Source: Afifellaceae bacterium (GTDB lineage: Bacteria; Pseudomonadota; Alphaproteobacteria; Rhizobiales; Afifellaceae). Taken from it: a stretch of 64,000 nt of DNA. Below, in pieces: positions 24,046-26,356 of the stretch (within the stretch, counting starts at the first letter, position 1; each line of letters begins with the position of its first letter). Location: assembly GCA_028284625.1 (NCBI GenBank), contig JANQRH010000013.1:62001-126000 (forward strand), given 5' to 3'. The notes below the pieces were generated by a model, which had not been told where the DNA came from, ran no database searches, and saw nothing but the letters and a program-made list of their open reading frames with translations. The position numbers and the translations under genes were made by a program.

Positions 24046-24528
24046 TCACTCCGCCGCTTGTTGCGTGTCCGTGTAGCCGTCGAGCGTGCCGGTGATCGTG
24101 TAGCGCAGGATCGCCACCACTTGCTCAGGCGTTTCCGCGACGGCCAACGCTGCAGCATCGACCTCCTTCAAAGCATGCTGGTGCTCGGCGGAATGCACCA
24201 CGATGATCAGTTTGCCGAGTGCTGCGGCATATCCAGCGTCAAAGGCTGCGTTCCACTGCTTGTATTTCTCGCCGAAGCGCACCACGACGATATCGGCCCG
24301 CTGGATGAGCGTGCGCGTGCGGATCGCGTTGACCTTGGCGCCCTTGTGATCGTGCCAGAACTTGTCGGCCTCCGCGCCGAGGATCGCCACGCCGCAATCG
24401 TCTGACGCTTCGTGGTGCGTCACCGGCGCGGTGAAGGTGACGTCGAGACCGGCTGAAGCCGCGCCGGTCGCAATCCGCTCGCGCCAGTCTGTGTGGATCT
24501 CGCCGGAGAGATAGACGCTCCAGGCCAT
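24046..24528 (-). CDS. YtoQ family protein
   Basis: 160 residues with the conserved YtoQ pattern: VYLSGEIHTDWRERI at the N terminus, FTAPVTHHEASDDCGVAILG, DKFWHDHKGAKVNAIRTRTLIQRADIVVVRFGEKYKQWNAAFDAGYAAALGK. The fold is expected to be nucleoside 2-deoxyribosyltransferase-like, given the SGEI start and the late NAAFDAG motif, but no activity is established for the family. It lies convergent with iolB with 7 bases between the stops and is divergent from the SDR gene. Placement inside an inositol block may be accidental. Confidence 0.9.
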   Translation of the reverse strand: MAWSVYLSGEIHTDWRERIATGAASAGLDVTFTAPVTHHEASDDCGVAILGAEADKFWHDHKGAKVNAIRTRTLIQRADIVVVRFGEKYKQWNAAFDAGYAAALGKLIIVVHSAEHQHALKEVDAAALAVAETPEQVVAILRYTITGTLDGYTDTQQAAE

Positions 24529-24667
24529 GTCGTGCTCCCTCTATGATGCCCCGTACGGTTGCTGTCGGTCTGGTGGAGACCGGGTTGAAACCGCGCCGGG
24601 GCGTGCTAAGCGCGAGTGTAATGCGCAGGAAAGCTCAGAGCCAGCAGGCCAGCATGAGGGAGGTATG

Positions 24668-25486
24668 ATGAGCGACCAATTCAAAGGCAAGGTCGGGATC
24701 GTCACGGGCGGAACCCAGGGATTGGGCGAAGCCATCGCGCGGCTCTTCGCCGAGCGCGGCGCCGCAGGCCTGGTGATCGTCGGACGCAACGAAGAGCGCG
24801 GCAAGGCCGTGGCCGATGACATCTCAAAGAGCGGCTGCCCGACGCATTTCGTCGCCGCCGACCTGGCGGACATCGCCGCCTGCCGCAAAATCGTCCCCGC
24901 GGCGGAGGAAGCTTTCGACCGCGTCGATGTTCTGGTCAATGCCGCCGCTATCACCGACCGCGGGACCATACTCGACACCAGCCCGGAGCTGTTCGACGCC
25001 TTGTTCAACGTCAATGTGCGCGCGCCGTTCTTCCTCATGCAGGACGCCGCCAAGGCGATGATCAAGCGCGGTATTTCAGGCACGATCGTCAACATCCTCT
25101 CCGTCGCCGCGCATGGCGGCATGCCCTCAATCATCGCCTATAGCGGGACGAAGGGCGCGCTCGCGATCCTGACCAAGAGCGCGGCCTTCTCGCTCATGCG
25201 CAACAACATCCGCATCAACGGCCTCAACATCGGCTGGATGGACACGCCGGGCGAAGATCGCATCCAGCGCCTCTATCACGATGGCGGCGACGACTGGCTC
25301 GCCAAGGCGGAAGCCGAGGCGCCCTTCAAGCGGATATTGAAGCCGCAGGAGGTGGCGCGCGCGGTCGCGTTCGCGGCAAGCGAGGAGTCCGGCATGATGA
25401 CCGGGTCGCTCATCGACTTCGAGCAACAGATTCAGGGTTGCGCGGAAGGCGCCGTCTGGCCGAGCGCCGCAATGACGCTCGACTGA
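24668..25486 (+). CDS. SDR family oxidoreductase in the inositol block
   Basis: 272 residues. Classical SDR with GGTQGLGEAI for cofactor, VNAAAITD, catalytic Ser in NILSVAAHGG and YSGTKGA for Tyr and Lys. The C-terminal segment GWMDTPGEDRIQRLYHDG and DFEQQIQG matches a subgroup that I associate with rhizobial inositol and polyol clusters, where it may act on inosose or a similar cyclitol. The start was moved from the track value because MSDQFKGKVGIVTGG is the natural N terminus and GGGAGG lies 5 bases before the second of two adjacent ATGs (24665, 24668). Substrate is inferred only from context. Confidence 0.87.
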   Translation: MSDQFKGKVGIVTGGTQGLGEAIARLFAERGAAGLVIVGRNEERGKAVADDISKSGCPTHFVAADLADIAACRKIVPAAEEAFDRVDVLVNAAAITDRGTILDTSPELFDALFNVNVRAPFFLMQDAAKAMIKRGISGTIVNILSVAAHGGMPSIIAYSGTKGALAILTKSAAFSLMRNNIRINGLNIGWMDTPGEDRIQRLYHDGGDDWLAKAEAEAPFKRILKPQEVARAVAFAASEESGMMTGSLIDFEQQIQGCAEGAVWPSAAMTLD

Positions 25487-25505: not shown

Positions 25506-25694
25506 TTAGAGCCTGTTTGAAAAGCCAACCTCACGGCGCGCGGCCGGATAATCAGACGTTGGCTTGCGCCAAAATGGTCGGTTCCGGCTCTAAGATCAAA
25601 AGACCAAGAGCCCGGAACCGGCCTTTTCCGGGCAGGCGGTCGTCTGATTGGCCATCGACAAGGGCGTGGCCGGCATTCTCAAACGGGCTCTTAA
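25506..25694. repeat. Foldback (MITE-like) intergenic element
   Basis: About 189 bases that form an imperfect palindrome over their whole length. Outer arms are GAGCCTGTTTGA and TCAAACGGGCTC (one mismatch), a middle pair is ATCAGACG and CGTCTGAT, and inner arms are CGGTTCCGG and CCGGAACCG. There is no coding capacity. The right end supplies the stop codon of the next gene on the minus strand. No transposase is nearby, so a non-autonomous element is the inference. Confidence 0.65.
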
Positions 25695-26212
25695 AGCTTG
25701 GCGAGCGCCAGCCGCGTCACCTGAGCGGTTGGGCCGCCCGGCCGCACCTTGTCGGTGACCGTAATGGCGAGCTGGCCATTGCCGGCGTTGCGGATGGTCA
25801 TCGTCGCTTTGGTGTCGCCGTTCACCGGCTGCGGCCAGGTGATGGTCAAGACGACGGAATCGCCGCGCCGCCGACCCGACAGGCTGGCCGGTCCGATGGA
25901 GGATCCGACATAGACGCCGCTATAGCGGCCCGATGCAGGATCGAAGCTGATATTGGCGCGAATCTGCTTGGAAAAGACGAAAGCGCCGCACTTGCCGCTC
26001 ATGGTGACGGCGTTGGCCGACGGCTGGCCGGTCAAGGTGCAGCGCACGCGATTGGGTCGTTCGCTGGCGTTGCGCAAGACCTCGCCGGAGCCGGAGAACG
26101 ACCCGGCAAATCTCTCAAAGAAACGCGCCTCAGACGCGTTTGCCGTTCCGATAAAGAGCCCCCCAACAAGCGCCAGGCCGGCAAGCGCGGCGCTGATGGA
26201 ATGTAAGTGCAT
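25691..26212 (-). CDS. Small secreted protein of unknown function
   Basis: 173 residues from the ATG at 26212, chosen because GGAGG lies 8 bases ahead and because MHLHSISAALAGLALVGGLFIGTANASEA is a clean Sec signal peptide with cleavage after ANA. The mature part is beta-rich (RFAGSFSGSGEVLRN..., VRCTLTG, GKCGAFVFSKQIRANISFDPASGRYSGVYVGSSIGPASLSGRRRGDSVVLTITW) and has two cysteines that could pair. This resembles small periplasmic proteins with a lipocalin-like or beta-sandwich fold seen in rhizobia, but I do not recognise a named family. The TAA stop lies in the end of the foldback element, so the C terminus may have been set by its insertion. Confidence 0.75.
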   Translation of the reverse strand: MHLHSISAALAGLALVGGLFIGTANASEARFFERFAGSFSGSGEVLRNASERPNRVRCTLTGQPSANAVTMSGKCGAFVFSKQIRANISFDPASGRYSGVYVGSSIGPASLSGRRRGDSVVLTITWPQPVNGDTKATMTIRNAGNGQLAITVTDKVRPGGPTAQVTRLALAKL

Positions 26213-26356
26213 CTCAAATGCCTCCGAAGTGATGTGTCGCCTCCTAGCGCAACCGCCGGCCAAAGACCGGGCTCATCGCCGATTAGGCTAAATGCGTAAG
26301 GAAGGATGCGCCGCCGTTAACCGCGCCAACGCGGCGGCAATGCGGTCGCGATGCGG

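Follow-up and report, generated by a model that had tools for sequence, protein, structure and literature searches.

An IS5-related MITE family in one Afifellaceae genus whose C-TNA-G target preserves neighbouring stop codons

Introduction

The closest described relatives of the element reported here are IS1031-like members of the IS5 family. One of them, the IS1031-group element ISLrh, has the ends GAACCTGTCTAGTATCT and inserts at TNA with duplication of this trimer (PMC12016507). Other systems resemble the element in part. MITEAba12 is a short, many-copied repeat with IS-like ends (PMC6382973), and 36 copies of the pneumococcal BOX repeat encode the stop codon of a neighbouring gene without clear truncation (PMC3049150). 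The NuwaII group of the PHIS superfamily, which is IS5-related and eukaryotic, prefers the target C/TNA/G (PMC4482050), and REP/BIME repeats are short palindromes of 20-40 bp (PMC3733652).

Here, we analyzed a foldback element in a 64,000-nucleotide stretch (the window) of the genome of an Afifellaceae bacterium. The element belongs to a MITE family that is real, related to IS5, present in many copies and restricted to one genus. It is an ordinary new family, and its most interesting feature is its stop-codon-preserving target, for which the BOX repeats are a precedent.

Results

The element lies between two convergent genes. The features of the locus, in window coordinates, are as follows.

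24527-25486, plus strand: gene for an SDR-family oxidoreductase, the convergent neighbour; its stop is 22 bp ahead of the element
25506-25508, no strand: left copy of the target duplication, TTA, 3 bp; a single CCTTAAAGC stands at the empty site in L038 and G001, and TNA duplications occur family-wide
25509-25690, plus strand: MITE copy, 182 bp, with repeat matches in its own genome and in the congener
25509-25520, plus strand: left terminal inverted repeat, GAGCCTGTTTGA; the start, C-TNA followed by GAGCCTG, is also seen in IS5-type elements
25532-25547, plus strand: CACGGCGCGCGGCCGG, one half of an internal direct repeat, with a decayed partner at about 25662-25673
25551-25558, plus strand: middle foldback arm, ATCAGACG, with its partner CGTCTGAT at 25641-25648
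25579-25587, plus strand: inner foldback arm, CGGTTCCGG, with its partner CCGGAACCG at 25612-25620
25679-25690, minus strand: right terminal inverted repeat, GAGCCCGTTTGA as read on the minus strand
25691-25693, minus strand: right copy of the target duplication, TTA, which on the minus strand is TAA, the stop codon of the secreted-protein gene
25691-26212, minus strand: gene for a small, probably secreted protein of 173 aa, 96% identical in L038 and of no known family

An initial sequence-only reading of the window had described a nested foldback with outer, middle and inner arms, spanning 25506-25694 (189 bases). We found all three arm pairs, and the foldback stands; its extent is corrected to 25506-25693, a complete unit of TTA, 182 bp and TTA that measures 188 bases. 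The outer arms (25509-25520 and 25679-25690) pair with one mismatch, and the terminal inverted repeats are accordingly imperfect (GAGCCTGTTTGA and TCAAACGGGCTC). When the segment was folded as DNA together with short flanks, it scored -57.4 kcal/mol versus -37.8 ± 3.7 for shuffled sequences (z -5.3), and none of 200 shuffles did as well. No Rfam covariance model matched the element at E values of up to 1.

The search for further genomic copies that the same reading had proposed was fruitful, revealing 13 full-length copies in the element's own Afifellaceae (Hyphomicrobiales) genome, which comprises 31 contigs and 3.9 Mb. Twelve of these were near-full-length blastn matches, the window copy at 100% and the other 11 at 78-85% identity, and the thirteenth lies in L014. 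The one congener examined, G001, carries about 33 copies. Beyond these two genomes, nine other genomes of the family held no full-length copy and a single weak partial match, the plasmid records searched held no match, and a scan of 150 genomes of the order for the terminal-repeat pattern returned only the own genome. Across the 46 copies that we compared, nearly all measure 178-186 bp, and the element contains no gene. Their tree has the shape of a star, its tip branches making up about 80% of the total length, as would be expected of copies that derive from a common source and decay independently. Tandem copies occur at L006/L008, L014, L050, L053 and L056, an arrangement that fits the target since each junction is again C-TNA-G. 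Mini forms of 58 bp, built of the two ends only, occur in L013, L014, L059 and L060 and read GAGCC..ACGGCGCGCGGCCGGCATTCTCAAACGGGCTC or close variants. The mini form looks like a deletion between the internal direct repeats CACGGCGCGCGGCCGG. Two mini forms have clean duplications (TTA and TGA), and both deletion in place and separate transposition are possible origins.

The flanks of the 46 copies mostly read C-TNA before the element and TNA-G after it. The two flanking trimers are identical in 18 copies, compared with 7.5 ± 2.2 when the pairing of flanks was shuffled (0 of 20,000 shuffles gave as many); an exact duplication is missing from 28 copies, and no 4- or 5-bp duplication occurs in the set. 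At the window site, the MAG L038 carries a single CCTTAAAGC in place of the element, and the flanks are likewise contiguous in G001, although L038 and G001 are perhaps one genome. A comparison of nine further own-genome sites with G001 found five empty and four occupied. In total, six of the ten compared sites, that of the window included, are empty in the congener, and therefore the element has moved. In two of the pairs at shared sites, identity between the copies is only 83%, compared with about 89-93% in their flanks; these pairs may represent either independent insertions or fast decay.

The element thus shows short and near-constant length, terminal repeats, target duplications and empty sites, and it lacks a transposase gene. 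The proposal that a non-autonomous mobile element sits at the gene end was confirmed by the many copies, the terminal repeats, the TNA duplications and the empty sites, and by the existence elsewhere of IS5-type transposases whose elements have matching ends. We consider it very likely that this is a MITE mobilized in trans by an IS1031-like transposase of the IS5 family, which inserts at C-TNA-G and duplicates TNA.

The strong foldback could also be read as that of a palindromic repeat of the REP/BIME or RIME type, kept by the host for RNA stability or termination, with no TNA-duplicating MITE involved. Several features of the copies agree with such host retention. Some core columns, for example the inner GGCTC, never vary among the 45 aligned copies, and CAGACG and CGTCTG hardly do; allowing site-rate variation (HKY+G) raises lnL by 88, with alpha 1.27; and where the element abuts a gene at its stop codon, the right end faces that gene in 16 cases versus 4. 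However, transposition is evident from the 3-bp duplications and the empty sites, the covariation term is near zero with a double change in only two of 20 predicted pairs, and the terminator scan gave one weak site where 0.3 were expected. We therefore regard a host-kept palindrome as very improbable. A role as RNA is unsupported by covariation, with essentially no compensatory change, and the case for a terminator comes down to the one weak terminator-like site. A REP/BIME identity was rejected: such repeats are far shorter and make no target duplication, whereas this unit of 182 bp has terminal repeats and duplicates 3 bp of its target. Sequence-level constraint on the core columns is possible.

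The gene whose stop codon adjoins the window copy has an open reading frame spanning 25691-26263 on the minus strand, with a likely start at the ATG at 26212, and matches no Pfam or NCBIfam family. The closest named relative carrying it is an Afifellaceae MAG of the order Hyphomicrobiales. A diverged paralogue at G000:C26:129033-129439 is about 75% identical at the DNA level. The TAA of this gene is the complement of the TTA at 25691-25693, directly abutting the terminal repeat. The sequence-only reading had placed this TAA within the terminal repeat and supposed that the insertion might have reset the C terminus. Instead, the TAA is the duplicated target, just outside the repeat, and the C terminus is unchanged: it reads ...QVTRLALAKL TAA both in the filled allele and in the empty allele of the congener. 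That reading had named a single copy, and the same stop in strains lacking the palindrome, as observations that would tell against it; the latter is what we observed, and the former failed, given the many copies.

Two observations lend some plausibility to the idea that the element brought in a new stop codon, altering the C terminus of the secreted protein, namely the direct contact between TAA and terminal repeat and, in five of the 12 stop-codon insertions tested, the use of the element's own first base as the final G of a TAG. Nevertheless, the idea is refuted by the empty allele, with its identical TAA and C terminus, and in all 12 stop-codon insertions with a readable empty allele the stop lies at an unchanged codon position (offset 0 codons). 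We give it next to no credence. The stop triplet itself sometimes differs between species in these 12 cases. Four of them (L003, L026, L030 and L054) have TAA in the filled allele and TGA in the empty orthologue, which could mean either that TTA targets are preferred or that the stop codon has drifted.

Applying one simple gene caller to all sites, we found that 20 of the 46 insertions coincide precisely with the stop codon of a neighbouring gene, 25 lie elsewhere between genes and one lies inside a called gene. As a control, the C-TNA-G sites in 864 kb of the own genome numbered 1278 within genes, 294 between genes and 92 at stop codons, placing stop codons at 24% of the non-genic sites. Relative to this control, insertions at stop codons are in excess by 2.6-fold in odds (p = 0.006; p = 0.005 with shared sites dropped). 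The excess above 24% may reflect either targeting or selection against promoter insertions. The right end abuts the stop-codon gene in 16 of the 20 cases and the left end in four (p = 0.012), or in 15 of 19 once duplicates are removed (p = 0.019); this orientation bias was noticed post hoc and is offered as a lead only. A family adapted to gene ends, with a stop-favouring C-TNA-G target, scarless ends and a conserved core that, preferentially in one orientation, helps to form the 3' end of the upstream mRNA, seems unlikely to us.

Which transposase moves the MITE was approached through its ends and target, on which the link to IS5 rests. A scan of IMG/VR for the ends revealed L094, a 942-bp element that starts with GAGCCTGTTTGAG and encodes an IS5 transposase (NF033580, 139 bits), and L110, a 995-bp element with the same start, whose ends are perfect, whose duplications read TAA and whose NF033580-type IS5 gene is broken. 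In other Hyphomicrobiales, CTNA/GAGCCTG stands at each end of two IS5 elements, L153 of 931 bp and L156 of 854 bp, whose duplications match; in G059 and G095, IS5 transposases lie next to this start. Matching ends are found in L094, L110, L153 and L156, together with copies in G044, G059 and G095. A different, MITE-like element of 214 bp is also present in an IMG/VR contig (L104:8670-8883). Its ends, GAGCCTGTTTGAAAA, are almost identical and its duplications read TTA, a hint that one mobilization system may serve unrelated interiors.

The proposed search for a transposase with matching terminal repeats therefore succeeded in IMG/VR contigs and among other Hyphomicrobiales and failed in both host genomes. 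In the draft own genome no IS5 transposase (PF01609 or PF13340) was found, and the draft of G001 yielded nothing but a weak PF13586 fragment that has no matching ends; both host genomes being drafts, a repeated IS may be missing from the assemblies. None of the IS5 elements found through PF13586 had GAGCCTG ends. No autonomous element sharing the interior was present among the examined genomes, IMG/VR having been compared by ends, and a literature text search for the terminal sequence gave only unrelated papers among the matches listed. Because neither PF01609 nor PF13340 was found in the own genome, the element is classed as an IS5-related MITE and not as an IS5 element. We infer both the IS5-type mobilization and the present absence of its enzyme from the host. 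Host genomes with no IS5 transposase beyond a weak fragment would also suit a MITE driven by another transposase family that makes 3-bp TNA duplications. Yet several IS5-family elements from the same order agree with the MITE in their ends as well as in the C-TNA-G target, and we judge a different enzyme to be highly unlikely.

Discussion

In the proposed course of events, an IS5-type transposase would bind the GAGCCTGTTTGA ends and put the element into C/TNA/G, and staggered cuts followed by repair would duplicate the TNA. With G as its first base and C as its last, the element restores C-TNA-G at each junction, so a TAA, TGA or TAG within the pentamer survives on either strand and protein length is kept. 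The target in the window would have been the CTTAA that ends the minus-strand secreted-protein gene. Each of the four TNA trimers reads as a stop codon (TAA or TGA) on one strand or the other, and such transposons can consequently occupy gene ends with the protein unharmed.

A stop codon that is the duplicated target explains why some bacterial repeats seem to "encode" the stop of their neighbour. Scarless landing on stop codons also offers an explanation, open to testing, for the accumulation of such elements in compact genomes. Our open-literature search for bacterial MITEs that target stop codons gave BOX as the only precedent.

Among known systems, the IS1031-like IS5 elements such as ISLrh share the repeat pattern (GAACCTGTCTAG versus GAGCCTGTTTGA) and the 3-bp TNA duplication; unlike the geneless MITE, they encode a transposase and measure about 0.85-1 kb, and no common interior was found. 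MITEAba12 is similar in being short, in its many copies and IS-like ends, and in the share of clean duplications (40% there, 39% here), but it makes 9-bp duplications and has a resident partner IS, whereas this MITE uses C-TNA-G and no partner was found. The comparison with PHIS NuwaII, a eukaryotic group, is limited to target logic. The BOX repeats are unrelated in sequence, and here, in contrast to BOX, the mechanism is visible: the stop codon is the duplicated target.
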